Part shown: piece after piece, positions 1-21,962 of the stretch | Position numbering within the stretch: the first letter of the stretch is position 1 | Layout: each line of letters starts with the position of its first letter | From: an uncultured Lentisphaerota bacterium | GTDB taxonomy: Bacteria; Verrucomicrobiota; Kiritimatiellia; RFP12; UBA1067 | Reading direction: 5' to 3' | DNA length: 33,903 nucleotides | Assembly (NCBI GenBank): GCA_900321575.1 | Contig: ONWT01000046.1 | Span: 1-33,903, forward strand | Translations under genes and position numbers: made by a program | Notes under the pieces: model-generated | Told to the model about the DNA's origin: nothing | The model's input: the letters and a program-made list of their open reading frames with translations, nothing else | The model's database searches: none

Positions 1-192
1 CAGATTTTTGTGCAGCCTGCGTAGCAGGCGCTTTCGTGGTCGCGCGTAGCGCCAAACGAGTTTGAAAGCGGTTTAAGAAGTGCGAAGCAGCGTTAAGCGT
101 TAGCGGTAGCCCAACCATCGGAGTTAAATTTCGTGCGTTTACTCTTGGACATGACGCGCAAAAACGGCAATACAAGAAAGCCCCAGATTTGG
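1..192. other. Non-coding leader region with small hairpins and short repeats
   Basis: I see no convincing gene here. Two hairpins share the loop GTA: a 6-bp stem at 15-20/24-29 and a 4-bp stem at 42-45/49-52. Around 90-107 the heptamer AGCGTTA occurs twice in tandem, followed by a near copy. The mix of GCGTAGC-like words looks like an intergenic repeat element or the 3' tail of a transcript entering from the left, but no second copy exists in the window to test this. The right end leads into the ddl promoter. Confidence 0.4.
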
Positions 193-198
193 TATAAT
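190..198 (+). promoter_or_regulatory. Extended -10 promoter of ddl
   Basis: A perfect TATAAT at 193-198 is preceded by TGG, forming a TGn extended -10. I see no good -35. Only 8 bases separate the box from the ATG at 207, so transcription should begin at or within a base or two of that ATG. No Shine-Dalgarno fits between, which points to a leaderless or near-leaderless mRNA. Confidence 0.75.
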
Positions 199-206
199 AT
201 ATGCCA

Positions 207-1121
207 ATGGAAAAGATTGCAGTATTGATGGGGGGTACTTCAAGCGAGCGCGAGGTCTCTCTCGTGAGCGGCAGAAATGTCGCCAATGCGCTTGCGTCGC
301 TCGGCAAGTATGATGTGGTTCCCGTAGACCTCAAGTCCGACAGCCTCGAAGGCATGCCGGACGGTGTTTCGCGCGTCTATATCGCCCTTCACGGCGGCTG
401 GGGAGAGAACGGCGGGGTGCAGGCGGCTCTGGACGCAAGAAAGATTCCCTACACAGGGCCAGGCGCGATGTCGTCCAAGGTGGCGATGGACAAGATAAAG
501 ACGAAGATGGTCCTCGAAATGAAAGGCGTGCCCACGGCTTCATGGTCGCTCGCCTCGCCCGGCACGGAATCGTCCCCGCTGCCGCTGCCGGTCGTCGTTA
601 AGCCGCCGTGCGACGGCTCGTCTGTCGGCATCTCCAAGGTTTCGCGCGCCGAAGAATGGCAGGGCGCTCTCGACGCCGCACTCGCCGCGCAGGGCGGCAA
701 GGGCGAGGTTCTCGTCGAGGAGTTCATCCCCGGCCGCGAAATGACGGTCGGCATCATTGATGGAGAGGCCTTGCCGGTGCTGGAGATCGTCGCCAAGGGC
801 GGCTGGTACGGCTATGAAGAGAAATACAACTCCGACGAGACGCGATACCCCTTCTATGGCGAAGACAAGGCCGCGCTGATCGCGTCCTGTCCGCCCGAAA
901 AGCTGCAGAAGATCGCGCTCGAGGCCTATGGCGCGCTGGGCTGCCGCGGCGTGGCGCGTGTCGATTTCAGGGTGTCGCCAATGGGCAGGTGCTACGTGCT
1001 GGAGCTCAATACTTCCCCAGGCTTCACCCCGCACTCGCTCGTGCCGAAAGCCGGAATGAAGACGGGGCTTTCGTTTGCGGGAGTGTGCGACAAGATACTC
1101 GACAGCGCGAGGTTCGGCTGA
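207..1121 (+). CDS. ddl: D-alanine--D-alanine ligase
   Basis: ATP-grasp ligase that joins two D-alanines in the cytoplasm for the peptidoglycan stem peptide. The 304-residue length is normal for the family. Visible signatures are the N-terminal MGGTSSEREVSLVSG (residues 8-22), ALHGGWGENGGVQ (60-72), the ATP-binding strand with DGSSVGIS (136-143), EEFIPGREMTVG (171-182), and the metal/substrate region RVDF...LELNTSPG (251-272). An ATG at 201 would add two residues, but it lies two bases after the -10 box, so the ATG at 207 is preferred. The stop is one base before the ftsQ start, so ddl leads the division cluster. The usual upstream mur genes are not visible, and ddl has its own promoter. Confidence 0.95.
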   Translation: MEKIAVLMGGTSSEREVSLVSGRNVANALASLGKYDVVPVDLKSDSLEGMPDGVSRVYIALHGGWGENGGVQAALDARKIPYTGPGAMSSKVAMDKIKTKMVLEMKGVPTASWSLASPGTESSPLPLPVVVKPPCDGSSVGISKVSRAEEWQGALDAALAAQGGKGEVLVEEFIPGREMTVGIIDGEALPVLEIVAKGGWYGYEEKYNSDETRYPFYGEDKAALIASCPPEKLQKIALEAYGALGCRGVARVDFRVSPMGRCYVLELNTSPGFTPHSLVPKAGMKTGLSFAGVCDKILDSARFG

Positions 1122-1122
1122 G

Positions 1123-1944
1123 ATGAAGAAGAACAAGATCGAAAAAAACAACGGCATCAAAGGCTTCATGCTGCTGCTTGCCGCGATTCTGCCGCTTGGC
1201 GCGGCGGTCGGGCTTTTCATCGCCTATTCGCATCTGCGCGATCTCTGGCTCGAGCAGTGCGTCATCACCGACGCGGCGACGCAGGTGCAGATTTCGTCCG
1301 GCAAGCTTGTGCAGGCCGGCACGATCGCCGAAAAGTTCGGCCTTGTCAACGGTGCGAACATAGCGCTCATAGACTTTCCGGCGAAGCGGCAGGAGATGCT
1401 CGCGAAATATCCGGCGATCAGGGACATGTCGATCGAAACGATCATGCCTAACAAGGTAAACATCTCCATAATCGAGCGCGAACCGGTCGTAAGAATGAAC
1501 ATTCGCGGACAGAAAGGCGACACGGGGCGGGTCGCCGACACCGATGGCGTGGTCTTCCAGTGCCGGCGAGGGACGGGGCTTCTGCCGATAGTGCGCGAGC
1601 CGCAAATGCCGGGCACGGCGGTCGGCTCTAAGCTGTCGGGCCGCGCACTCGCCGCGCTGAGGCTCGTCGAAACGTGCCGCAGGCCCGATTTGCAGGAGTT
1701 GGGCATTCTGGAGGTCGACACTTCGAAAGAGGATTTTCTCTGCGCAACATTGAGCGACTATTCGAAGGCGAAGATAGCGTGGAGCGGGATGGACGATCCG
1801 GACGCGTCGCAGAACGCCGATCTGCTCGCCACGCTCACCAATCTGCGCGACGCCATAAAAAGCAATGTCGGCACGGGCGTGACCACGTGGAACGCCACCT
1901 CGACAGAATTCATCTACGCCGACACTAAGGAGAAGATACAATGA
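1123..1944 (+). CDS. ftsQ: Cell division protein FtsQ (divergent)
   Basis: Bitopic divisome protein that links the FtsA/FtsZ ring to septal wall synthesis through FtsB/FtsL. The 273-residue protein has a short basic cytoplasmic N-terminus rich in Lys/Asn, one membrane segment at about residues 14-36, and a POTRA-like region. In that region the pattern of a glycine-asparagine turn, an arginine helix, a proline-bearing strand and IIEREPVVRM (about residue 115) matches FtsQ. Sequence similarity elsewhere is weak, so the call rests on POTRA pattern, topology and position between ddl and ftsA. GAGG about 10 bases upstream of ATG 1123 can act as the ribosome site. The end overlaps ftsA by four bases (ATGA). 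Confidence 0.85.
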   Translation: MKKNKIEKNNGIKGFMLLLAAILPLGAAVGLFIAYSHLRDLWLEQCVITDAATQVQISSGKLVQAGTIAEKFGLVNGANIALIDFPAKRQEMLAKYPAIRDMSIETIMPNKVNISIIEREPVVRMNIRGQKGDTGRVADTDGVVFQCRRGTGLLPIVREPQMPGTAVGSKLSGRALAALRLVETCRRPDLQELGILEVDTSKEDFLCATLSDYSKAKIAWSGMDDPDASQNADLLATLTNLRDAIKSNVGTGVTTWNATSTEFIYADTKEKIQ

Positions 1945-3146
1945 GCGACATTTACGCCGCTATCGAAATCGGCACGACGCGAACCCTGCTAGCGGTCGGC
2001 GAAGAGAACCCCAACGGACGGCTGACCGTCACGTGCCACGCCGAGATTCCGTCCACAGGCGTGAGGAAAAGCCAGATTCTCGACATAAACCAGGCGACGC
2101 AGTCCATCAAAGGCGTGCTGCACTCGATCGAAAAGAAGCAGGCGGAGTCAGGTACGGACATAACGATCGGCAACGCCTTTCTCGTGGTCTCGGGCCAGCA
2201 CATACGGGCGGACAGCTTTTCGCGTCCCGTGCCGGTCGACGGGCGCGTCACCGACGACGACATAAACGAGGTCGTCGAGCAGTCCAGGATGATGGGGCTG
2301 GCGAAAGACCGCGAACTGCTCGATATCGTCGAACAGGACTACTGCCTCGACAGCCTCAGCGGAATCGCCGCGCCCAAAGGGATGGCCGGCAGAATGCTCA
2401 AGCTGAACACCCTTCACATCCACGCCGACAGAAACCGCATCGACGACGCCAGAACGGCGGCGAACGGCGCGCGGCTCGAAATTCGCGAACCACTTTTCGC
2501 GGCCACATGCGCCGCCGAAGCCGTTCTCGAAGAGCACGAGCGCAAAAACGGCGTGCTTGTAGTCGATCTCGGCGGAGGCTCCACGAGCTATGCGGCGTAT
2601 TCCGACGGCTATCTCGTCACGACAGGCGTAATCGGCGTGGGCGGCGACCATGTGACGAACGATATCGCGCATGCCTTCCAGACGACCCAATCCCAGGCCG
2701 AGGCGCTGAAGACAAACGAAGCGGCCGCGGTCATCGGCAAGACAGACGCCGAAAACGGGCGGGTGAAGATTCAGGGCTCGTCGGCCCTCATGGACTCCCG
2801 CACGATTTCGCGCCGCGCGCTCGATACCGTAGTGAACGCGAGATTGAGGGAACTCTTTTCCATAATAAGGGACACCCTCGAAAGCCAGGACCTTCTCCAC
2901 CGCCTTCACGCAGGAATCGTCCTTACAGGCGGCGGCTCGGCCATGCGCGAGATAACCACGCTTGTGCAGCGCGAAATGGGGACGAATGTCAGGATCGGCC
3001 GCCCGACGGGCATAGACGGACTTGAAAACGAACCGAACCCCGCGTCGTTCGCGGCCATTGCAGGCGCCCTGATATACGCCTGCCACACCAATGCGCCGAA
3101 ACCGCTGTTCGGTCTCGACAAACTATTCGGAGGCTTCTTCAAATGA
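1941..3146 (+). CDS. ftsA: Cell division protein FtsA
   Basis: Actin-fold ATPase that tethers FtsZ filaments to the inner membrane and recruits the divisome. The 401-residue protein shows the phosphate-1 strand (AIEIGTTRT, residues 7-15), a 1C-type insert, the phosphate-2 strand VVDLGGGSTSYAAY (about 207-220) and the adenosine loop VLTGGGSAMREI (about 325-336). It ends in an amphipathic tail with alternating Phe/Leu/Gly and Lys (last ~14 residues), the usual membrane-targeting helix. AAGGAG at 1927-1932 lies 8 bases before the ATG. The gene overlaps ftsQ and ftsZ by ATGA at both ends, so translation of the three is probably coupled. Confidence 0.95.
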   Translation: MSDIYAAIEIGTTRTLLAVGEENPNGRLTVTCHAEIPSTGVRKSQILDINQATQSIKGVLHSIEKKQAESGTDITIGNAFLVVSGQHIRADSFSRPVPVDGRVTDDDINEVVEQSRMMGLAKDRELLDIVEQDYCLDSLSGIAAPKGMAGRMLKLNTLHIHADRNRIDDARTAANGARLEIREPLFAATCAAEAVLEEHERKNGVLVVDLGGGSTSYAAYSDGYLVTTGVIGVGGDHVTNDIAHAFQTTQSQAEALKTNEAAAVIGKTDAENGRVKIQGSSALMDSRTISRRALDTVVNARLRELFSIIRDTLESQDLLHRLHAGIVLTGGGSAMREITTLVQREMGTNVRIGRPTGIDGLENEPNPASFAAIAGALIYACHTNAPKPLFGLDKLFGGFFK

Positions 3147-4267
3147 ACGAATGCACCTCTAGCATGCTTTTGATCGGCATCGGCTCTTCAGGCTGCTCCA
3201 TAGCGCACAAAATCGCCTCGTCGTTCGAGGGCGGCATACGCCATGTCTTGGCCGACACCGACGCGAGATCGGGCGAGGGCGGCGAGCCATTCGTGCTTAT
3301 CGGCGGCGACCGCCTCGGCGGCAACGGCGCGGGGGGCGACATGGTGGCGGCGAGACTCGCGGCCGAAGATTCGATCGGTTCACTCGACACGCTGCTCGAA
3401 GGCGTGAGGCTCGCGGTGATCGTGACGGCCCTCGGCGGCGGCACGGGCAGCGGCGCCACCCTTGAAGCCGTGAAGCGGCTGCGCGAACACGGCATACCGA
3501 GTTGCGTCTTCGCGACCACTCCGTTCGCCTTCGAGGGCGAAGACCGCCAGCGCAACGCGCGAGGGGTGATGACGATGATCGAAGAGTCCGCCAATGCGTG
3601 CTTCTTCATGCAGCTCGACAAGCTTGTGGGCGACGCCGACCAGCAAATGGGCGGCGCGATGCGCAAGGCGATAGAGACGGTGTCCGCCGGAGTGACGCTT
3701 TTCTGGAACCTTGTCGCCAAGCCTGGCTACATCAAGCTCGACACCGAACGAATACGCCATATCATAGCCGGTTCCGGCAGAGGACGTTTCGCGACAATCA
3801 CCGTCGAAGGCGAAGACCGCGCGCAGAAGGCCGTCGAAGAGCTTTGCAAGGCGCCCCTTCTGCTGACGGCTTCCGGTCCCGTGCGGGCGATGCTTTGCGG
3901 CGTTCTCGCCGGTGACGACCTGAGGCTCGCCGAAATCGGACTGATCGCTGATGAACTGCACAGGTTTTTCGGCGAACAGGCCTCGTTCTCGCTGGCCACG
4001 GTAAACGACGAAGCCACCTTCTCGGGGCGGCTAGCGGTAGTGCTGATGCTGTTCGAGTCGGACGCACGCGACGCTGACGGCGATGAAGAGAGCGACGAAA
4101 CCGGCAAGGCCAGCGACGCCGCGCGACGCCGCCGCAAACAGAAAGCGATATTGGGAACAGCTCCGACGGGACGGGGAAGGTTCAACAACTCCGAGTCCAC
4201 GATATGGAACGGCGAGGATCTGGACGTACCGACATTCGTAAGAAGGAACATCAACCTTGATTTCTGA
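3143..4267 (+). CDS. ftsZ: Cell division protein FtsZ, divergent, with atypical T7 loop
   Basis: Tubulin-family GTPase expected to form the division ring. The 374-residue protein keeps the T2-like ADTDAR (37-42), the tubulin signature GGGTGSGA (98-105), the ribose/T5 region TTPFAFEGEDR (125-135), an acidic/basic spacer (about 306-333), and a C-terminal FtsA-binding peptide, LDVPTFVRR (360-368). Two key loops are altered. The glycine-rich T1 loop reads GIGSSGCS (12-19), and the T7 synergy loop reads IKLDTER (197-203) where typical FtsZ has NxDFAD, so the Asn and the second Asp are lost and only D200 remains. GGAGG at 3130-3134 precedes the ATG by 8 bases. Position and tail make FtsZ secure; catalytic competence is uncertain. 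Confidence 0.92.
   Translation: MNECTSSMLLIGIGSSGCSIAHKIASSFEGGIRHVLADTDARSGEGGEPFVLIGGDRLGGNGAGGDMVAARLAAEDSIGSLDTLLEGVRLAVIVTALGGGTGSGATLEAVKRLREHGIPSCVFATTPFAFEGEDRQRNARGVMTMIEESANACFFMQLDKLVGDADQQMGGAMRKAIETVSAGVTLFWNLVAKPGYIKLDTERIRHIIAGSGRGRFATITVEGEDRAQKAVEELCKAPLLLTASGPVRAMLCGVLAGDDLRLAEIGLIADELHRFFGEQASFSLATVNDEATFSGRLAVVLMLFESDARDADGDEESDETGKASDAARRRRKQKAILGTAPTGRGRFNNSESTIWNGEDLDVPTFVRRNINLDF
4243..4247 (+). promoter_or_regulatory. Shine-Dalgarno deciding the mutL TTG start
   Basis: AAGGA inside the 3' end of ftsZ lies 9 bases before the TTG at 4257. No ATG or GTG is available near the conserved MutL N-terminus, so this site supports initiation at TTG within ftsZ. Confidence 0.65.
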
Positions 4268-6041
4268 CCGCGACGGGCATATACGGGTATTGCCTCTCCA
4301 TGTGGCGAACAAAATCGCCGCTGGCGAGGTAGTCGAGCGCCCTGCCTCGGTCGCCAAGGAACTGGTCGAAAACGCCATCGACGCGGGCGCGAAGAAGATT
4401 TCGATATCCATCGTGCAGGGTGGGCGAAAGCTTGTGGCCGTCCAGGACGACGGTTGCGGAATGAGCAGGGAGGATGCTGTGCTTTCGCTCGAACGGCAGG
4501 CCACGTCGAAAATACGCGATGTAGGCGACATCGAGCAGATAGATACGCTCGGCTTCCGCGGCGAGGCGATTCCGTCCATAGCGGCGGTATCGCGCTTCAC
4601 GCTTACGACACGCCGCCACGACAGCGACGAGGGCACGCGAATACAGGTCAATGCGGGCAACCTCGCCGAAGTTTGCGTCGCCGGCTGTCCGCCGGGCACC
4701 ATAGTTGAAGTTCGGGACCTGTTCTGCAACGTCCCTGCGCGGCGAAAGTTTCTCAAGGCGTTCGCGACCGAAGAAAACCACGTCAAGCAGATCTTCACCG
4801 TGCACGCTTTGGCCCATCCGGATATCGGCTTCTCCCTCAGCGTGGACGGACGCGAACTCTATCGTCTGGCCCCTGCCGCAGACGCCGCCGAACGCATACG
4901 CGAATTGCTCGGGGCGGATGCGGCCGACAATATGCTGCCGATCTCTTTCGATGGCGCAGTCAAGGTATCCGGCTTCATCGAAAGGCCCAACCTGTCCACC
5001 CCGACACGCCGCGACCAGTACATATTCGTCAACGGCCGGCCGGCAAGCGCGCCTTCGATCGCATACGCCATAAAAGAGGCCTTCCCGAAGCGGCAGGCGG
5101 ACACGAAACCCGCAGCGGTCATTTTCTTGCGCGTCCCGCCGGATCAGGTCGACGTGAACGTCCACCCCACCAAGCGCGAAGTAAGATTCAGGGACAACAC
5201 ATCCGTCAAGAACGCCTTGGCGACAGCCATAGGCAACGCTCTCGCAAGCGGGCTGTCCGCTTTGCCCGCGAAGGAGCAGCAGCCCGGCCAGGCCGCGCCT
5301 ATGGCGCAAAAGGCTTTTGCGGCCCGCGAAACCACGCCGCCAAAGGCCGCGCCAACTGCGATGGAATACGCGGCGCCGCCACAAAAGCGGCCGGAAACGC
5401 CGCCTCTGCCCGAACCGGCCGCAGTCGCGGTGGACCTGCCTCTGGCTGCGGCGGAGAACGATTCGCGCGCGAAGCCGTGGGCGTGGTTCCACTACTTGGC
5501 GACCACGGCCTCTGGCTATCTGCTGATCGAGACCGACGCGGGAGTCGTGACGATAAACCCCCATGCCGCGCGCGAGCGTATCGCGTTCGAGCAGCTGAAG
5601 GTCAAAGGCGTTTCGCAAAGCCTTCTCATACCCGAGACGGTGCAGCTTTCGCCGCCGGATTTCGCCCGCCTCAACTCGGCTTTGCCTATAGTCGAGTCTA
5701 TGGGCTTCAAGCTTGAGCCGTTTGGCCGCGACACATTCAAGATAGAAGCGATACCCCAACTGATCGACGGGCTGTCCCCCACCGCCGTGATCACGACAAT
5801 CGCAAAAGATCTTGCCGATGGCGCGACCCGGCGAATCGGCGAGCGATGGCGCGAGAATCTTGTGGCCAAATCGGTCGCGAAATCGTTTGCCGGAATGTCT
5901 CTCACGCTTACGGAAGAAGGCGCCACAAGGCTCGTAGAGGAACTCGCCTCCTGCACGATGCCTTACGTTTGTCCACGCGGCAAGCCAACGATGATCTTCA
6001 CCTCCACGCGAGAGCTGAACCGCAAATTCGCCAAAGACTGA
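4257..6041 (+). CDS. mutL: DNA mismatch repair protein MutL with substituted endonuclease motif
   Basis: GHKL ATPase that couples MutS mismatch recognition to strand removal. The 594-residue protein has an intact N-terminal ATPase: VANKIAAGEVVERPASV (16-32), ELVENAIDAG (35-44), DDGCGM (64-69), GFRGEA (99-104) and NVHPTKREVRF (301-311). An Ala/Pro-rich linker (about 335-405) leads to a C-terminal dimerisation domain. In methyl-independent MutL that domain carries DQHA(X)2E(X)4E and CPHGRP. Here the first reads NPHAARERIAFE (434-445) and the second CPRGKP (572-577), so the catalytic Asp is Asn and the Gln is Pro. The start is TTG and overlaps ftsZ by 11 bases. Placement behind ftsZ implies co-transcription with division genes. 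Confidence 0.95.
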   Translation: MISDRDGHIRVLPLHVANKIAAGEVVERPASVAKELVENAIDAGAKKISISIVQGGRKLVAVQDDGCGMSREDAVLSLERQATSKIRDVGDIEQIDTLGFRGEAIPSIAAVSRFTLTTRRHDSDEGTRIQVNAGNLAEVCVAGCPPGTIVEVRDLFCNVPARRKFLKAFATEENHVKQIFTVHALAHPDIGFSLSVDGRELYRLAPAADAAERIRELLGADAADNMLPISFDGAVKVSGFIERPNLSTPTRRDQYIFVNGRPASAPSIAYAIKEAFPKRQADTKPAAVIFLRVPPDQVDVNVHPTKREVRFRDNTSVKNALATAIGNALASGLSALPAKEQQPGQAAPMAQKAFAARETTPPKAAPTAMEYAAPPQKRPETPPLPEPAAVAVDLPLAAAENDSRAKPWAWFHYLATTASGYLLIETDAGVVTINPHAARERIAFEQLKVKGVSQSLLIPETVQLSPPDFARLNSALPIVESMGFKLEPFGRDTFKIEAIPQLIDGLSPTAVITTIAKDLADGATRRIGERWRENLVAKSVAKSFAGMSLTLTEEGATRLVEELASCTMPYVCPRGKPTMIFTSTRELNRKFAKD

Positions 6042-11787: not shown

Positions 11788-13662
11788 TCAGCATTTTACC
11801 GGCACCAGCCGCACATCGCCCCAGCCGCACGGCAAAGCGAATATGACGGTATTCCCCTCGCGCTTCTTGTCGCCGCGCATCAAGGGCTTGAGCGAATCGA
11901 ACGAAAATCCCTGCGGCAGCTCCACACCAAGCCCCGCAGACGCGAAGACCTCTTTAAGTTCGTCGCTCCAGCCTTGCGCCGCCAAGCCGAGGCTCTCGGC
12001 GAGCTTGGCCTCTTCGACGCAGCCGATCGCCACGGCCTCGCCGTGGGAGATCGTGTAACCGGTCGCCGACTCTACCGCATGCGCGACAGTGTGCCCGCAA
12101 TTGAGTTTTGCGCGCTCGCCCGTCTTTTCCAGCGGGTCTTGCATGACTACAGACACCTTCACGGCGACATTCCGCCTTATCTCCTCCGCCGAAGGCACCC
12201 CGCCATTCGCGGTATACGCCTTTTCGCCCCCGATTATCGCGTGTTTGATCATCTCCGCGCGTCCGCTGCGAAGTTCGCGTTCTGGCAAAGTGCGCAGAAA
12301 GCCGACATCCATAACGACCTTTCGCGGCGGATGAAACGCGCCGGCCAGATTCTTGCCCTCGGGCAGATCGCACGCAGTCTTGCCGCCGTAAGAAGCGTCC
12401 ACCATCGAAAGCAGCGTCGTCGGCACATTTATCCAGTCGATTCCGCGCATGAACGTCGCCGCGGCGAATCCCACAAGATCGCCCGTGACACCTCCGCCTA
12501 TCGCAGTCACGCAGTCTTTGCGGCCGAGCCCCGCCTTGGCGAACGCACTCCACAGCATGGCGACTGTTTCGATCGTCTTGTGGCTTTCGCCGGACGGCAC
12601 CACGCAAATCGCCCGTTTCGCCAGCTCCGGATACAGCCGTGCGACATTGGCGTCTATCACGATATTGGGCAGCCCTTCGCCGCCGCCGACCGGGCGATAC
12701 TCCATGCCGCTCTCGTCGGCCAGCATGGCGTCGAGGACTGCGAACGCGGTCAGCGCCTCCGCCACGGGAACGGCGCGCCGCGCTATGCACGGGTCGTGCC
12801 TGCCGCGAATCTGCAGCTCTACCGGAGTCATCGTCGACAGGTCGACGCTCTGCTGCGTCTTGTATATCGACGGGGTCGGCTTCATCGCCAGCCTGAACTC
12901 GATGGGCATTCCGCTCGTCATGCCGCCGAGTATTCCGCCGTGGCGGTTGCCCAGCGTGACGACGCGCCCGTTCTCCACGGCAAACGCGTCATTGTTCTCG
13001 CTGCCTCGCAGAGCGGCGCTCCTGAAGCCGTTGCCGAACTCCACTCCCTTTACGCCGGGAATGCCGAATATCGCCTGCGCGATGGCCCCGTCGAGGCCGT
13101 CGAACATCGCTCCGCCGATACCCGGCGGCAAACCGGTGACCGAAACAGAAATGACGCCGCCCACGGAGTCGCCCTCGGCCTTCGCCGCAAGTATCGCCTC
13201 GTCGCTCACATCGGCCTTCGCCGAGACGCCTACTCCGCGCCGCTTGAGCTCCTGCAGACACAGCGCCCCCGCGATACACATCGCGGCGGTCATGCGTCCG
13301 GAATTCGCTCCGCCCCCGGGCGCAATGCTTCCCGTCTTGACCCAATGCGGAAAATCGGCGTGCCCTGGACGGGGGACGCTCTTTTCGTAGTCGCCGCTTC
13401 GCGTGTCTGTATTGCGTATGATCGCCTCTATCGCCGCGCCTGTCGTCACCCCGTCCGCGAGACCTGCGACGAACTCGGGCTCGTCCGGTTCCCTCCGCGC
13501 AGTGGACATCGCGTCCCTCCCGGGTGCGCGACGCTCCATGAAGGCGCGAAGCGCCGCAAAGTCTACCGCGATCCCCGAAGGGAACCCCTCCAGCCGCATG
13601 CCGATCTTCGGCGCATGCGATTCGCCGTAGACTTCAAGCTTGAGGCGCCTGCCGATTTTCAT
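11788..13662 (-). CDS. Fused chorismate synthase / 3-dehydroquinate synthase (AroC-AroB)
   Basis: Two shikimate-pathway enzymes in one 624-residue frame. Residues 1 to about 316 are chorismate synthase (EPSP to chorismate, needs reduced FMN): YGESHAPKIG (12-21), PRPGHADFPHW (97-107), SGRMTA (121-126) and RGRHDPCIARRAVPVAEA (286-303). Residues about 320-624 are 3-dehydroquinate synthase (DAHP to DHQ, NAD and zinc): PSGESHKTIET (356-366), IGGGVTGDLVGFAAATF (388-404), PTTLLSMVDASYGGKTA (414-430), ligands Glu470, His524 and His540. The AroB part lacks the first ~35 residues of the usual N-terminal NAD subdomain, and both that subdomain and the C-terminus are shortened. AAGGA 7 bases upstream supports ATG 13662. 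It follows the rubredoxin gene by 13 bases. Confidence 0.92.
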   Translation of the reverse strand: MKIGRRLKLEVYGESHAPKIGMRLEGFPSGIAVDFAALRAFMERRAPGRDAMSTARREPDEPEFVAGLADGVTTGAAIEAIIRNTDTRSGDYEKSVPRPGHADFPHWVKTGSIAPGGGANSGRMTAAMCIAGALCLQELKRRGVGVSAKADVSDEAILAAKAEGDSVGGVISVSVTGLPPGIGGAMFDGLDGAIAQAIFGIPGVKGVEFGNGFRSAALRGSENNDAFAVENGRVVTLGNRHGGILGGMTSGMPIEFRLAMKPTPSIYKTQQSVDLSTMTPVELQIRGRHDPCIARRAVPVAEALTAFAVLDAMLADESGMEYRPVGGGEGLPNIVIDANVARLYPELAKRAICVVPSGESHKTIETVAMLWSAFAKAGLGRKDCVTAIGGGVTGDLVGFAAATFMRGIDWINVPTTLLSMVDASYGGKTACDLPEGKNLAGAFHPPRKVVMDVGFLRTLPERELRSGRAEMIKHAIIGGEKAYTANGGVPSAEEIRRNVAVKVSVVMQDPLEKTGERAKLNCGHTVAHAVESATGYTISHGEAVAIGCVEEAKLAESLGLAAQGWSDELKEVFASAGLGVELPQGFSFDSLKPLMRGDKKREGNTVIFALPCGWGDVRLVPVKC

Positions 13663-13675
13663 GGAACAGTCCTTT

Positions 13676-14305
13676 TCAAGCCTCTTCCACGAACTCCGAG
13701 CCGGGATGCTTGCATAGCGGACACAAATAATCGGCCGGAGGCTGGCCTTCGCCTTCGTAGACATAACCGCAAATGGGACAAATCCATCTCTTCGGTGCGC
13801 CTGGCGCGGCAGGCGCGATCTGCGGTTTCGGTTTGACGTTCTCCTGATAGTAGTCGTATGTCATGGTCGGCTCGTCCGACAACGTCTGCGCCTCGGTGAC
13901 CGCGCAGATGAACATACCGTGGGTGCCGAGATCGACATAGCTCTCGACGGCAAGCGAGAAGAAACTGTTCGAGTGGCGCGAAACGACCACAAGACCGTTC
14001 GCCGAGCGCGTGAACGCCGCGCCGTCGAACTTGTCGGTGTCGCGTCCGCTCCTGAAGCCGAAGTTCTCGAACACCGAAAACGGAGCGCTCTGCGAAAGCG
14101 TGCAGACGTTCATCTTGCCTGTCGCGCGGATCGTGTCGTGGGTATAGTTCGCCTTGTTGATGGTGACGGCGAGCCGCGGCGGTTCGCCGGTGACTTGCAC
14201 TACAGTGTTGCAAATCATGCCGTTGTCGCGCTTTCCGTCGCTGGTAGTGACGACATAAAGCCCATAGCCGATTTTGAAAAGAGATTTGTTGTCTACAATT
14301 GCCAT
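13676..14305 (-). CDS. Flavin reductase-rubredoxin fusion (high-molecular-weight rubredoxin type)
   Basis: Small redox protein that joins an FMN-binding flavin-reductase-like domain to a C-terminal rubredoxin. Residues about 1-155 match the flavin-reductase fold (FKIGYGLYVVTT near the start, DGKRDNGMICNTVVQVT, and a GTHGMFICAV strand). After an Ala/Pro linker, the last ~40 residues are rubredoxin with two iron-ligand pairs, WICPICGYVYEG and LCPLCKHPGSEF. Related proteins in anaerobes pass electrons from NAD(P)H-rubredoxin oxidoreductase to flavodiiron proteins for oxygen or NO detoxification; that role here is inferred. AGGAGG lies 8 bases before the ATG. It is first in a two-gene unit with aroC-aroB; reduced flavin supply for chorismate synthase is an attractive but unproven link. 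Confidence 0.9.
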   Translation of the reverse strand: MAIVDNKSLFKIGYGLYVVTTSDGKRDNGMICNTVVQVTGEPPRLAVTINKANYTHDTIRATGKMNVCTLSQSAPFSVFENFGFRSGRDTDKFDGAAFTRSANGLVVVSRHSNSFFSLAVESYVDLGTHGMFICAVTEAQTLSDEPTMTYDYYQENVKPKPQIAPAAPGAPKRWICPICGYVYEGEGQPPADYLCPLCKHPGSEFVEEA

Positions 14306-15341: not shown

Positions 15342-16361
15342 TCAGACCCTCTCGCCGGCCTCTTTGAAACGGCGCTCCTGCTCGGCCAACGCCAAGTCGG
15401 ACTCCACCATCAGCTTCACGAGCTCCTTGAAGCGCACTTTGGGCTCCCAACCGAGCACGCGCTTCGCCTTGGACGCGTCGCCGAGCAGCTGATCGACTTC
15501 AGTCGGGCGCGCATAGCGCGAGTCGTATTCGACATATTTTCGCCAGTCGAGCCCGACTTGGCCAAACGCCTCTTCGAGGAATTCCTTGACGGAATGCATC
15601 TCGCCCGTGGCGAGAACGAAGTCGTCCGGCTTGTCTTGCTGGAGTATCCGCCACATGCCTTCGACGTAATCCGCCGCATAGCCCCAGTCGCGCAGAGCCT
15701 CGATGTTGCCCATATAGAGCTTGTCCTGAAGGCCCGTCTTTATGCGCCCCACCGCACGCGTGATCTTTCTAGTCACGAACGTCTCGCCGCGGCGAGGAGA
15801 TTCGTGGTTGAAGAGAATGCCGTTGGCCGCGAAGATTCCGTACGCCTCGCGGTAGTTGCGGCACGCCCAATAGGCGTAGAGCTTCGCCACGGCATACGGC
15901 GAGCGCGGATAGAACGGCGTCGTCTCCTTCTGCGGCACCTCCTGCACAAGACCGAAGAGTTCGCTTGTCGAGGCCTGGTAGAATCTGGTCTTCTCCGTGC
16001 GGCCCGTGAGGCGTATCGCCTCCAGAAGCCTCATCGCGCCGAGCGCGTCGACATCGCCCGTGAACTCGGGCGAATCGAACGAAACGCGCACATGGCTCTG
16101 CGCGGCAAGGTTGTATATCTCGTCGGGCTGTATCTCGTAGACGAGGCGGATGAGGTTGGGCCCGTCGCCAAGATCGCCGTAGTGCAGAAACAGCGTTCTG
16201 CCGTTTACGTGCGGATCCTGGTAGAGATGGTCGATTCGGCCAGTGTTGAAGGTGCTCGCCCTGCGGATCAATCCGTGCACCTCGTAGCCCTTCGACAGCA
16301 GAAGCTCCGCGAGGTAGCTCCCGTCCTGTCCGGTGATTCCGGTTATGAACGCTTTCTTCAT
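15342..16361 (-). CDS. gmd: GDP-mannose 4,6-dehydratase
   Basis: Extended SDR that converts GDP-D-mannose to GDP-4-keto-6-deoxy-D-mannose. The 339-residue protein has the NADP loop [14 protein letters not shown] (8-21), an Arg-rich cofactor stretch [16 protein letters not shown] (35-50), the ASTSELFG strand with the catalytic Thr/Ser-Glu, and [10 protein letters not shown] carrying Tyr-x3-Lys. [17 protein letters not shown] and [13 protein letters not shown] are hallmark family motifs. It lies four bases downstream of the Lnt-GH20 stop with only a weak purine-rich stretch for ribosome binding, so translation may depend on the upstream gene. Directly followed by fcl. Confidence 0.97.
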
Positions 16362-16365
16362 ATTC

Positions 16366-19300
16366 TTACTCTTTCGTATTGCTGGTGAATTCCTTAGTGT
16401 CCAAATATCGCAAGCCGGCCACTTCCCGGGGATGGTCGCTCGTACCGGCGACCGGCAGAAAGGTGCCGATCCACTTCCAGCCGCCCTTCTTGGGCAGCAC
16501 GATCTTGACCGTGTTTTCGCCTTTCTTCAGATGTATGCGCGATGGCTCGCGATACCAATAGTCTTCATCGACGAGCGGAGTCTCTTTAGGATTGCCCGAA
16601 ACGCCTGGATGTATCCACTCGGGCGGCTTTACGGCGACTCCGTTTATCTCTATCGTCGCGCCGTGCTTGTTCCACTGTCCGCGACTCGGCGTGGGCGCGT
16701 CGCGGCTGCGTCCGTCCGAACGCGAGAAGCCGGTCATGCCGATCCACGCGCCGCAATCCATGTCGCGGTCGCTGACGATACGCGCCTCAAGCGTGACGCG
16801 TCCATCCCCGCTGGGAGCGTACGCACCCTTGGGGAACCAGAAATGGCGGGGATATATCGTGGCCTGCGGAATATTCTCCGCGAGAACCTTGCCGTCGGCG
16901 TCGGTCATTCGCCAGCGCATGGCGGTCTGCGCGACATAGGGGAAAGGATGCCTGAGTCCCTTCAGGACCTTGTCGCGCTGGGCGAGAGTACGCCGTTCGA
17001 GGTCGGCCGCCAGAGCGAAGCGCGGATCGTCCGGCGACGGCAATCTCGCATAAAGGCCAGGTTCGTCCTTCTCGCGTCCGCGCCAGAAATTGTCCGACAA
17101 AAGCACGATCGCGGGGTAGACGGCGTTCATGCGCACGACATCCTCCGTGTCGGCGATGGCATCGTCATGCCAGACGCCTATGATCGCGCCGAGGTGCTCG
17201 GACTTGGCGCCCCATCTGCACGGCTGCTGATAGGCGGCGACCGAAAGCAACTCTTCGGGATCGACATGGTTTATGTAGTAGCTGTTCTGCGAGTCGATAT
17301 AGGGCGTCTTGTCTCCGCGCGGATCGTTCGCCCCCATCCATAGCTGCTTTATGGACTGTCCGGGCAATTTCAGGCCGGGGCTCCACCCCATCAAAGCGCG
17401 TCCGTTCGAAGTCACTTTGCCAGCCCAGTAGTCGAGGTGGCTTTGGGGCACCTTCTCGCCCCTCTCGCGCGCCTCGTCCGTGCCGAGATGGATTATCGGC
17501 ATATCGTCCGCAGGGGCGAGGGCGCAAAGCTCGTCTATGAGCTCGCCCAGCATGATTTTCGCCTTCTCGCAAGCGAGATCGTCGATACCCGTAGCCTTTC
17601 GAAAGGCGAGAGTGTGGCCGGGCATGTCAAGCTCGGGTATGACGGTGACTCCGCGGCGCTTGGCATAGGCGAGGACATCCTTGAACTCGGCCTGCGTATA
17701 GTACTTGCCGATCTGGCGCGAAAGCGCGGACGCGTTTTGCAGCTCGGGGTGGATTTTCGATTCGAGCCGCCAGCCGTAATTGTCGGTCAGATGCCAATGG
17801 AACACATTGAACTTGTAGGCCGCGAGCATCGAAATCACGTCCTTTACGGACTCCACACTCTGATAGTTGCGTCCGCAATCAAGCATGAGGCCGCGATATT
17901 TGAACTCGGGCCAGTCGTTTATGACGCAATCGGGAACGCGCTCCGCGCCGGCGAGTTTCACAAGCTGCGCGTAAGTCATGCGCGCATAATGCCGCCCTTC
18001 CGCATCGCCGGAGAAACTTGGCTTGCCGTCTTTGACGGCAAGCTGATACGAGCCAGGGCCAGTTGGAGGCTCTACTTTCCCGGACGGGCTACGAAGGACT
18101 TGGCGAGGCCGCGGCATAAGCTCGTCGAGGCAGTCGGCGCTTGCCGGCGAAACCGCGGCGAAGAGAACGCAAGCGAGGGTCGAGAGGCGAAACGCGCGCC
18201 GCCTAAACAGGCCTTGCGGCAGAAATATCGCGGCAAGAAGCACGAGAAACGCGACGAAAAGCGGAGTGTCGCCGACGAGGACATAGGGCGTCAGCGACTT
18301 CTGTTCGGGGCAGTACGGCACTCTGTCGAACATAGTGCCGCTATCGTCGACAAGGGGACGTCCCTCGTCGTCGATCAGCCATGTCGCGCGGCCCCATGGC
18401 GTTATGGTTCCGGTAACGCCCGAGTTGCCTACGCGGATTATGGGAAGTCCCGTTTCCATCGAACGTGCGACGGACTGCCAAGCGTGCTGCTCGGCCTCGT
18501 CCGAATGGGAAAACCAGCTGTCGTTCGTTATGAACACGAGAATCCGCGCCCCCATTGCGGCCAATCGCCTGATCTGCGCCGAATCGGTATCTTCATAACA
18601 TATCGCGACGCCAAGTTTCACGCCGTCGAAATCGAGAGTCTTCAGCTCACCGGCCGTGCAGCTGCCCACAGGGGCAAGCTTCTGGAGAGAAGTGAATATC
18701 TTGTCGCCGGGTATGAATTCGCCGAACGGCACCAGATGAACCTTGTCGTATATCTGGCAGCGCCCTGACGCATCAGTGATCGCGGCGGAATTGAACTCCT
18801 TGTCGCCATCAATGCGCGTGCCGCCGCCCAATACCGCCTTGGCTCCCGCAAGTTCGCAGACCCACTTCGAGAAAATCGCTGCGTCGTACGTGCCGAAACG
18901 GCCCGCTTCGCAATATGCGCTCTCGGGGAGAACGACAAGACGCGGCTTGAGCGGCGCGACATTGCCGAGAAGCCCTGCGTAGATTTTGGCGGGAGATTCC
19001 TCTCGCGCAGGGTTGAAGACGCACGGAAAGTTTCTCTGCACCATAGCTACAGGCATGGAATCGCCGCAAGATTCCGTTTCGTCGCGCACGGTGCTTGTCG
19101 CATTAGCGAAGGAGTAGAGGCCGAATATCAACGCGAAAGGCAGAAGAGTCTCCACGCTGCGCGACCAATGGCGACGGGACGGATCGAGCACCCTTTCGGC
19201 AATGGACGCGATAGTGCCGTTTATCAGCACCACGACCATCGAAAGCAGATATACGCCGCCAAGCGCGGCAGGGGCGCCAAAGCCGCCTACTGCAGGCACA

Positions 19301-19764
19301 ACGCCAAGCTGATTCCAGGCAAAGCCGCCGAAAAGGCGCGAACGCACGAGTTCGAGTCCGCCCCAGAGCAGAGGCTCGACTACTATCAAGGCCGCGAGGC
19401 GCCATATGTAGCCGCGATCGCGCACAGACGACCAGACTTTTGCCGACAGATAGCCGAACGCAGCGAAATAGGCGGCGCAATATGCGGCCAGCGCGCCCCA
19501 GCCGAGTACGACCAACGGCCATGGACCGCCGTTCTTGACAATCGCTGGCATCCACGAGAGCGTGGCTACCCAGAACACCAGCCCGTTGACGAACCAGCGT
19601 CTGGCGGACTTTCCCGGCTCTGCGCGGCGGGCGAACCACAATAGCGGCGCGAGCGCGAAAAGGCTGTCCGCCATTTCCCCCATAGGCGGAAAGGACGCCC
19701 ATAGCAGGAAACCCGGCAAAAGCCACAATATCCGGGACGCTTTCTTCAGTGCTTTGCGTATCAT
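16366..19764 (-). CDS. Apolipoprotein N-acyltransferase fused to GH20 beta-N-acetylhexosaminidase
   Basis: One 1132-residue frame holds two envelope enzymes. Residues 1 to about 518 are Lnt, the inner-membrane enzyme that adds the third acyl chain to lipoproteins. They comprise several N-terminal membrane helices and then a nitrilase-type periplasmic domain with the triad Glu281 (LPESAYCE), Lys341 ([12 protein letters not shown]) and Cys389 (VAICYEDTD), and a last membrane helix (about 501-516). Residues about 521-543 are Arg-rich then hydrophobic and end in Ala-Ser-Ala, like a signal peptide. Residues about 550-1132 are a GH20 glycosidase: [34 protein letters not shown] and HLGTDE (catalytic Asp763-Glu764), plus a C-terminal beta-sandwich. 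ATG 19764 overlaps the U32 stop by ATGA; an upstream TTG (19776) is rejected. Confidence 0.93.
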
Positions 19765-21962
19765 ATATTCCCCCAACTAAGATCTATTCGCGTAGAAACG
19801 CCGTCCGGCACGGTGAACGTGCGAGGAACGCGGCGCGTGGTGACCCACAATCCGTCGCGCTTGAACACGGAGAGCCCCTCCAGCTCTTGCGAAGCAGGCT
19901 CCGAAAGCGACACGAAGAGCGGCGTGGACTGCTGGACGAGAAACTCCACGTCATATCCGCTCTCCGCTAGATACTGCAGATTGTCGCGTCCGTTTTCCGG
20001 ACTCGCCACGAAACGGCGCACGCCGAGTTCGGAGAGTTCTGCGAGAGCGCGAGAATTGAACGCGTAGAGAGTCCAGTCGGCGCTGATGTCGTCCACCCCC
20101 GCCGACTTCACCAAAGAGAGAGTCGCGAGGTCCGACACCTCCCATTTCGCATACCCTGCGCGAACGAGCCGCTTCACGAGAATGCGAAGTTTCGGGAAGT
20201 CCAGCTCTGACGTATAGACGGGAAGCGCCAGCCTTACGGGGCAGCCATAGCCATCAAGCGCCGAAAGGTCGGCATTGTCGGGAGAGACCGAAACAGTTAT
20301 TTCGTCCCAATCGCCGGCCGGCAAGGTCTGGCCGGCGCGTATCTTAACGGTCTTGCGCGGCGCCGGGGGAGTGAGATCCACATCTGCAACGTCCGATTCG
20401 GCAGCGGCTATCTTCGCGCGCCGTTCGTCATTGCGCAGCTCGTCGAGGCGTTCGACCACATCGCGCCGCAGATCGTTCAGCACGCTCATGGGCGCGAAGC
20501 GCCGATCGGGATCGACAAGATTCAGCGAGCCGAGCGAATAATCCGTCTCGCCGAGTTTCGAAAACGCCTTTTCGACGGCGGAATAAGTCTTCTCCGGGCT
20601 CTTCGCCGCGTCGAAATCACCCTTGATCTCGCTTTCCGCGACGGCGCCGCGCAGTGTCGCCACAGCCTTGATCGAGTCGGCTGCGAGTTCCACGCGCAAA
20701 TCGATCTTCGTTACGCCTGGGTAATCCCCCGGACGATAGCTTGGCGCCGGGAAGCGCCTCTTGACGGCGTTGGACATCGAGCAGTAGACAGTATCACCGC
20801 TACGCAATACGCGCGGCCATTCGACCTCGCCATTGTCCGGCAGGAGAATCTCGACATCAGATCCGGCAGAGACCTCAAAGACGTTCGCACGCGATATCGC
20901 CTGGCGCATCTCGCCGATTCCGAAGCCGAGAGGCTTGCCCCCATCAGGCGCGGCGAACTGCAGTCCATCATGGCGCTCAAGCGCGCGCGCAGTGTGAAAG
21001 CGCAGCCAGGCCCTTCCGTCGCGGTCTTTGGTTACGCGCTTTATGGTGCCTATAGGAGTGCCGAGATGGCCGAGCGAAACGGGATCGATAACCTCGCCGC
21101 CGTGTCCGTTGAGATAGAGACTTGTCGTTCTGCGAGAGAACACCGTCTCGATATCGGCTAGAGTCGCAGCCGCCGCGCTTGGGCGACCATCGAGAATCGC
21201 GCGATAATAGCTGGTCACGCTCGCCACGTAAAGCGACGATTTCATGCGCCCTTCTATCTTCAGCGACGCAACGCCTATCTCCGCTAGGCGCTTGGCTTCT
21301 TCGCCGGCGCGAAGATCTTTCATCGAAAATGCGAGGGTTTTGCGGCCGTCCTCGTCTTGATAGGGCAGGCGACAGCAATAGGCGCACTTGCCGCGATTGC
21401 CGCTGCGACCTTTTTCCATCGCGGAGAAAAGACAAAGCCCTGAGACCGAATAGCAAAGCGCGCCGTGTATGAAGCACTCCAGCTCGAGGTCGCCGCAACG
21501 CTTGGCAATGGACGATATCTCCGGGATGGACAGCTCGCGGGCGAGAACCACGCGCGAGAAGCCGATCTTCTTGAGCGCCATGACGCCTTCGAGATTGTGG
21601 GCGACAAGCTGGGTCGACGCATGGATCGCGAGCGATGGGAAGTGCCTGCGGCAAAGCCTCGCCACGCCGAGGTCCTGAACAATCAGTGCGTCGGGGGCGA
21701 TTTCGTCCAGCCTGGCAAGCGTCTCTATGGCCGGCTCCAATTCATCCTCGTCTATGATCGTGTTGAACGTGACGTAGACCTTTTTGCCCTTCGCGCGTGC
21801 GCAAGCGACAAGGCGGCGAAGGTCTTCGAACGAAAAGTTCTTGGCGAAAGCGCGGGCCGAGAAGTCCTGAAGCCCGCAGTACACCGCGTCCGCGCCCGCC
21901 GCGAAAGCGGCGAGAGCTGTTTCGAAATCCCCTGCAGGGGAAAGCAGTTCGGCATTGTTCAT
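19761..21962 (-). CDS. U32-family RNA hydroxylase, RlhA-like
   Basis: Member of the U32 'peptidase' family, several of which are iron-sulfur enzymes that hydroxylate cytidine or uridine in rRNA or tRNA using prephenate-dependent chemistry (RlhA for 23S C2501, TrhP for tRNA). The 733-residue protein opens with ELLSPAGDFETALAAFAAGA (5-24). It has the family cysteine cluster at Cys170, Cys177, Cys193 and Cys196/197 within HGALCYSVSGLC and SGNRGKCAYCCRLPY. The length beyond the ~300-residue core, with an inserted middle domain, fits RlhA more than TrhP. It starts four bases after ettA, another ribosome-related gene. A product of the shikimate pathway, encoded nearby, would supply prephenate. Confidence 0.88.
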   Translation of the reverse strand: MNNAELLSPAGDFETALAAFAAGADAVYCGLQDFSARAFAKNFSFEDLRRLVACARAKGKKVYVTFNTIIDEDELEPAIETLARLDEIAPDALIVQDLGVARLCRRHFPSLAIHASTQLVAHNLEGVMALKKIGFSRVVLARELSIPEISSIAKRCGDLELECFIHGALCYSVSGLCLFSAMEKGRSGNRGKCAYCCRLPYQDEDGRKTLAFSMKDLRAGEEAKRLAEIGVASLKIEGRMKSSLYVASVTSYYRAILDGRPSAAAATLADIETVFSRRTTSLYLNGHGGEVIDPVSLGHLGTPIGTIKRVTKDRDGRAWLRFHTARALERHDGLQFAAPDGGKPLGFGIGEMRQAISRANVFEVSAGSDVEILLPDNGEVEWPRVLRSGDTVYCSMSNAVKRRFPAPSYRPGDYPGVTKIDLRVELAADSIKAVATLRGAVAESEIKGDFDAAKSPEKTYSAVEKAFSKLGETDYSLGSLNLVDPDRRFAPMSVLNDLRRDVVERLDELRNDERRAKIAAAESDVADVDLTPPAPRKTVKIRAGQTLPAGDWDEITVSVSPDNADLSALDGYGCPVRLALPVYTSELDFPKLRILVKRLVRAGYAKWEVSDLATLSLVKSAGVDDISADWTLYAFNSRALAELSELGVRRFVASPENGRDNLQYLAESGYDVEFLVQQSTPLFVSLSEPASQELEGLSVFKRDGLWVTTRRVPRTFTVPDGVSTRIDLSWGNI

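Follow-up and report, generated by a model that had tools for sequence, protein, structure and literature searches.

Apparent in-frame fusion of Lnt to a GH20 hexosaminidase through a former signal peptide

The window analyzed here, a whole contig of 33,903 nucleotides, carries a gene in which Lnt and a GH20 hexosaminidase are read as one protein (Table 1). Alignment shows the bridge between the two to be homologous to the signal peptides found in about 28 relatives whose GH20 stands alone. The best explanation, and on balance a likely one, is a lineage-specific fusion in which a stop codon was lost in frame. The product would be a membrane polyprotein in which signal peptidase I probably still cleaves the internal signal peptide. 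Instead of a new envelope pathway, the case seems to represent a kind of gene fusion that recurs and is tolerated. That the fusion is real and in frame is very likely, and the main uncertainty is that it comes from a single draft metagenome assembly. This assembly measures 1.44 Mb in 119 contigs and is 82% complete. Among named relatives, the nearest are Kiritimatiellae/Verrucomicrobia of the ruminant gut, and the source bacterium is probably a rumen organism.

The frame runs from an ATG at 19764 to a stop at 16366-16368. A preliminary description of this DNA had reported Lnt and GH20 as fused in one ORF, and both the fusion and its coordinates are borne out; the gene, however, lies on the minus strand, and a plus-strand reading of 16366-19764 is ruled out by four stops there. 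Three Pfam domains match significantly, namely LNT_N at residues 18-183, CN_hydrolase at 275-471, and Glyco_hydro_20 at 621-725, and such matches in an open frame of 1132 codons are not due to chance. Across 18,120-18,220, where a check of the frame had been advised, the assembly sequence is open, and each of the other two frames has a stop near the junction. Only one Lnt and one copy of the fused GH20 were found in the genome, both being this gene. Lgt and LspA are found in the same genome as well, as is a second GH20 (contig C11), 40% identical to the fused one.

Table 1. Coordinates of the fused gene, its parts, and its direct neighbors in the window
Feature	Position	Strand	Basis or remark
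Fused gene lnt-gh20, 1132 aa	16366..19764	minus	Open frame without a stop
Lnt part, residues 1-520 (LNT_N, periplasmic nitrilase domain, last helix)	18205..19764	minus	Pfam, NCBIfam, model versus 5vrg
Lnt catalytic Glu281	18922..18924	minus	Aligned with E. coli Lnt
Lnt catalytic Lys341	18742..18744	minus	Aligned with E. coli Lnt
Lnt catalytic Cys389	18598..18600	minus	Aligned with E. coli Lnt
Last Lnt helix (500-520; 21 residues, none charged)	18205..18267	minus	Hydropathy; homology to the C-terminal helix of relatives
Arg521-Arg523, positive cytoplasmic loop, Lnt's own tail	18196..18204	minus	Lnt tails of relatives
Former signal peptide: uncharged residues 527-543 (17 in all) with Ala-Ser-Ala at the end; signal peptidase I site predicted at 543/544	18136..18186	minus	Alignment to stand-alone GH20 signal peptides
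Mature GH20 part, residues 544-1132	16369..18135	minus	Pfam, PDB profile match, 75-82% identity to stand-alone relatives
GH20 catalytic Asp763-Glu764 in HLGTDE	17473..17478	minus	Alignment to 4pys
Peptidase U32 gene, directly upstream, 4-base overlap (ATGA) with lnt	19761..21962	minus	U32-lnt neighborhood conserved across the genus
GDP-mannose 4,6-dehydratase gene (gmd), 4 bases downstream of lnt-gh20	15342..16361	minus	Neighborhood not conserved

The first half of the protein scores 222.7 bits against the NCBIfam equivalog for lnt, TIGR00546 (cut-off 132.9). The triad Glu281/Lys341/Cys389 had been named correctly to the residue, and it aligns with E267/K335/C387 of E. coli Lnt. In the E. coli structure, the Glu/Lys/Cys triad lies in the nitrilase domain, and the N and C termini are both cytoplasmic (PMC5500888). 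A structure model built from 38 homologues is confident for Lnt, and its best match is E. coli Lnt (5vrg, TM-score 0.81 over the target), a match that takes in both the eight-helix membrane domain and the nitrilase fold. The first half is, to judge from these alignments, a complete Lnt that is predicted to carry out the N-acylation of lipoproteins. Its closest relative is 75% identical and ends in ...IARRS, and the Lnt proteins of relatives end about 20-55 residues past position 499, with a tail that often contains Arg or Lys.

In the second half, the Glyco_hydro_20 match reaches 145.2 bits (cut-off 22.3) and covers profile positions 1-111 of 348. Asp763 and Glu764 in HLGTDE, also pointed out exactly beforehand, align with the GH20 catalytic pair of 4pys and are invariant in nine relatives. 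The second half of the GH20 (beta/alpha)8 barrel has no Pfam match and models poorly. A separate GH20 model, built from nine close sequences, is poor (mean pLDDT 56.6). In the model from 38 homologues, GH20 is only partly modeled, with residues 795-909 below a pLDDT of 50 in a region of shallow alignment and no profile match. The N-terminal half and the catalytic pair suggest that the enzyme is active. Compared with orthologs, the GH20 half has a dN of 0.14-0.16 against a dS of 1.1-1.8 and the Lnt half a dN of 0.19 against a dS of 1.09, and with dN this low relative to dS, both halves are under purifying selection.

The nature of the bridge becomes clear from GH20 hexosaminidases that stand alone in Kiritimatiellae of the same genus. 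These are orthologous enzymes, 75-82% identical, that likewise have their own signal peptide, but each is a separate gene with its own Met start. Their order is Met, a signal peptide with a small last residue, and then D-C/A-L-D-E-L. Of 30 sequences aligned across this region, 26 carry Ala or Gly at -1. In the fusion, the Lnt tail LFRRR directly abuts the signal peptide (20 protein letters, not shown). The Arg-Arg-Arg and Ala-Ser-Ala noted earlier are exactly R521-R523 and A541-S542-A543, and the suggestion that the join makes topological sense is upheld by a homologue of a GH20 signal peptide standing right behind the last helix of Lnt and its Arg-rich tail. The features sought in a signal peptidase I substrate were a positive n-region, an h-region of 10-17 residues, and small residues at -3 and -1; the bridge offers RRRAFR, 17 uncharged residues, and A541-S542-A543. 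By hydropathy, the uncharged run of 17 residues compares with 21 in the preceding Lnt helix, and the bridge is short for a membrane anchor. Residues 520-543 are disordered or of low confidence in the model. Between residues 490 and 595, only two start-like codons are present: GTG508, which lies within the Lnt helix, and ATG550, which comes after the signal peptide. Since no ATG, GTG, or TTG lies between GTG508 and the end of the signal peptide, a GH20 with its export signal could not be made separately by normal initiation. The GCG at residue 524, with AGGCGG before it, could be a decayed GTG start.

The same GH20 ortholog has entered at least two further in-frame fusions, in two sister species. 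In one of them (G072; C191, L139 3023-5971), it lies in frame behind a YibE/F membrane protein in a product of 982 aa, and its signal peptide still has an in-frame ATG preceded by GGAGG; fused and free forms may both be made. In the other (G002; C13, L138 3640-7050), it is fused to a secreted SGNH-SASA (sialate O-acetylesterase) esterase, giving 1136 aa, and the signal peptide has been lost or eroded. The fused GH20 gene of G002 is followed by an iPGM gene, which is 93% identical to the iPGM of the window.

Lnt has a further partner as well. In genus g3 of a sister family, it is fused to a TPR protein of about 800 residues, and the two are in one frame in 15 of 16 genomes (loci L152-L157, L164-L174, L176, and L177). 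The layout is Lnt, a positive loop, a segment of 14-24 uncharged residues with an A-x-A-type end, and then the TPRs, which are related to YbgF/CpoB. In the sixteenth genome (G092, locus L175), the lnt and TPR genes are separate and overlap in ATGA, and the TPR protein has a normal signal peptide initiated by Met. In at least two of the g3 fusions, the 60 codons that precede the TPR part include neither ATG nor GTG nor TTG. The passage from the G092 overlap to fusions without a start is what would be expected if operon neighbors were becoming an obligatory fusion, and the Lnt-TPR proteins are independent of Lnt-GH20 while sharing its bridge design. In a sample of 388 genomes from the phylum, the Lnt lengths among the matches listed are otherwise ordinary. 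Long Lnt frames in G398, G279, G203, and G542 of this sample proved to be read-outs of the upstream frame rather than C-terminal fusions, and the same is true of G006 and G062.

The favored course of events can be set out in a few steps. The GH20 gene would have come to sit directly behind lnt, and the loss of the lnt stop and the gh20 start would have left one gene. Lnt would still insert with a cytoplasmic C terminus, with its Arg-rich tail now acting as the positive n-region. Because the Lnt C terminus is cytoplasmic (PMC5500888), a signal peptide behind its positive tail would be oriented to re-cross the membrane, bringing GH20 into the periplasm. Signal peptidase I would most likely cut after Ala543 and yield, in equal amounts, an Lnt of normal size (about 543 residues) and a soluble GH20 with 589 residues. 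Such a fusion could be tolerated because both products and their topology stay unchanged, and no special cooperation between the enzymes is needed. More tentatively, and with chances a little short of even, one could consider the cytoplasmic, positive C terminus of Lnt as a recurrent docking point, where secreted proteins fuse via their own signal peptides and signal peptidase I splits the resulting polyproteins (Lnt-GH20 and Lnt-TPR).

The preliminary description had left a choice between a tethered hexosaminidase and a polyprotein released by signal peptidase, and the analysis supports this choice. If left uncut, the signal peptide would be a ninth helix and would anchor the hexosaminidase beside Lnt, on the outer side of the inner membrane. 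Nothing in the sequence forbids this, and the frame does encode one protein. However, 17 uncharged residues with a Pro and a conserved Ala-Ser-Ala are typical of a cleavable signal, and the small -1 residue is kept both here and in the independent Lnt-TPR fusions. This favors cleavage after Ala543 as the most likely outcome and makes a lasting tether rather unlikely.

The distribution of the fusion is narrow. When 61 genomes of the genus and 162 of the order were searched with a query spanning the junction, Lnt-GH20 was found in one piece in 1 of 61 and 1 of 162, in both cases the genome of the window. The other 60 genus genomes all have lnt and gh20 as separate genes, which, where seen, are on different contigs. 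Relatives that always encode two genes had been named beforehand as a refutation, and this is indeed the situation in the genus. Because all 60 keep two genes, the notion of a conserved function for the pair is removed, but the reality of the ORF is unaffected.

Of course, an assembler could have joined two unlinked contig ends, and both the draft state of the metagenome assembly and the separate genes in all 60 relatives would fit with this. However, the join lies only a few residues from the natural ends of the two genes, is in frame, and has lost the GH20 start codon. The sequence at the junction is found a single time in the genome and contains no 14-mer or longer sequence that recurs within the window, which speaks against a mis-assembly driven by repeats. 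Also, G+C by codon position is alike on both sides (GC3 0.70 and 0.74), and similar fusions of both partners are found in other, unrelated assemblies, leaving an artefact improbable. It is very improbable that an internal start or an undetected sequencing frameshift makes two proteins from the one frame. The ATG with GGAGG retained in the G072 fusion is a precedent for an internal start, but the stretch between residue 508 and the end of the signal peptide has no ATG, GTG, or TTG in the GH20 frame, and a single indel would end Lnt and still leave GH20 without a start.

The surroundings of the genes bear on function. The adjacency of U32 and lnt is widely kept in the genus, and the position of gh20 is variable, with unrelated neighbors. 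A conserved lnt-gh20 or gh20-gmd operon was not found among the loci of relatives, and in none of the loci of the 60 relatives does gmd adjoin lnt or gh20. The theme of GDP-fucose and envelope glycans put forward earlier is not supported by these comparisons. The least probable reading of all, a bifunctional machine dedicated to coupling the maturation of lipoproteins with glycan trimming, could draw on the physical linkage and the neighboring GDP-mannose dehydratase, but the pair is absent from all relatives examined, and GH20 also fuses with unrelated partners.

Several other features of these genomes were observed. Genome G082 has two GDP-mannose dehydratase genes (C1 and C132), one of them directly behind aroC-aroB. 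In the window, chorismate synthase and 3-dehydroquinate synthase form an AroC-AroB fusion at 11788-13764 on the minus strand; among 20 other genus genomes, 10 (11 places) match AroC-AroB in a single continuous stretch, and several others have the two as separate genes. The last part of a division and cell-wall cluster occupies 1-6041 on the plus strand. It comprises ddl, a likely ftsQ, ftsA, and a short protein of 374 aa that resembles FtsZ, and behind it comes a mutL-like gene.

Fusions of Lnt have been described, as have bacterial polyproteins, but both are rare, and a literature search of limited extent found neither the Lnt-GH20 nor the Lnt-TPR architecture. The cases described here form a natural series for how adjacent genes for a membrane and a secreted protein become one gene with topology kept, from an ATGA overlap through an in-frame join with an internal start to a join without a start. 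They raise the testable question of whether signal peptidase I cuts a signal peptide behind eight membrane helices, and they warn annotators that a fused gene does not necessarily mean a common pathway.

Among known systems, the nearest mechanistic case is the FbcH cytochrome b/c1 polyprotein of Bradyrhizobium, in which a multi-span membrane protein, an internal signal peptide, and a periplasmic domain follow one another and the product is cut into two. The FbcH partners are subunits of one complex, whereas no shared task is known for Lnt and GH20. In the literature, the closest case is the mycobacterial Lnt-Ppm protein, a two-domain Lnt-Ppm1 in slow-growing mycobacteria (Rv2051c/BCG_2070c) that corresponds to the separate, adjacent MSMEG_3860/3859 of M. 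smegmatis (PMC3850990). It resembles Lnt-GH20 in that Lnt and then a second enzyme share one ORF and the partner is separate in relatives (PMC3850990). The partner in Lnt-Ppm1 is a polyprenol-phosphate mannose synthase, whereas that of Lnt-GH20 would be exported via an internal signal peptide. In Lnt-Ppm1, no return signal is known between Lnt and the partner. Closest in design is the Lnt-TPR protein of g3, which shares with Lnt-GH20 the order of Lnt, Arg-rich loop, signal-peptide-like segment with an A-x-A-type end, and periplasmic domain. It differs in its YbgF/CpoB-like TPR cargo and in its conservation, and because it is kept in 15 of 16 genomes, the Lnt-TPR fusion is the older and fixed one.
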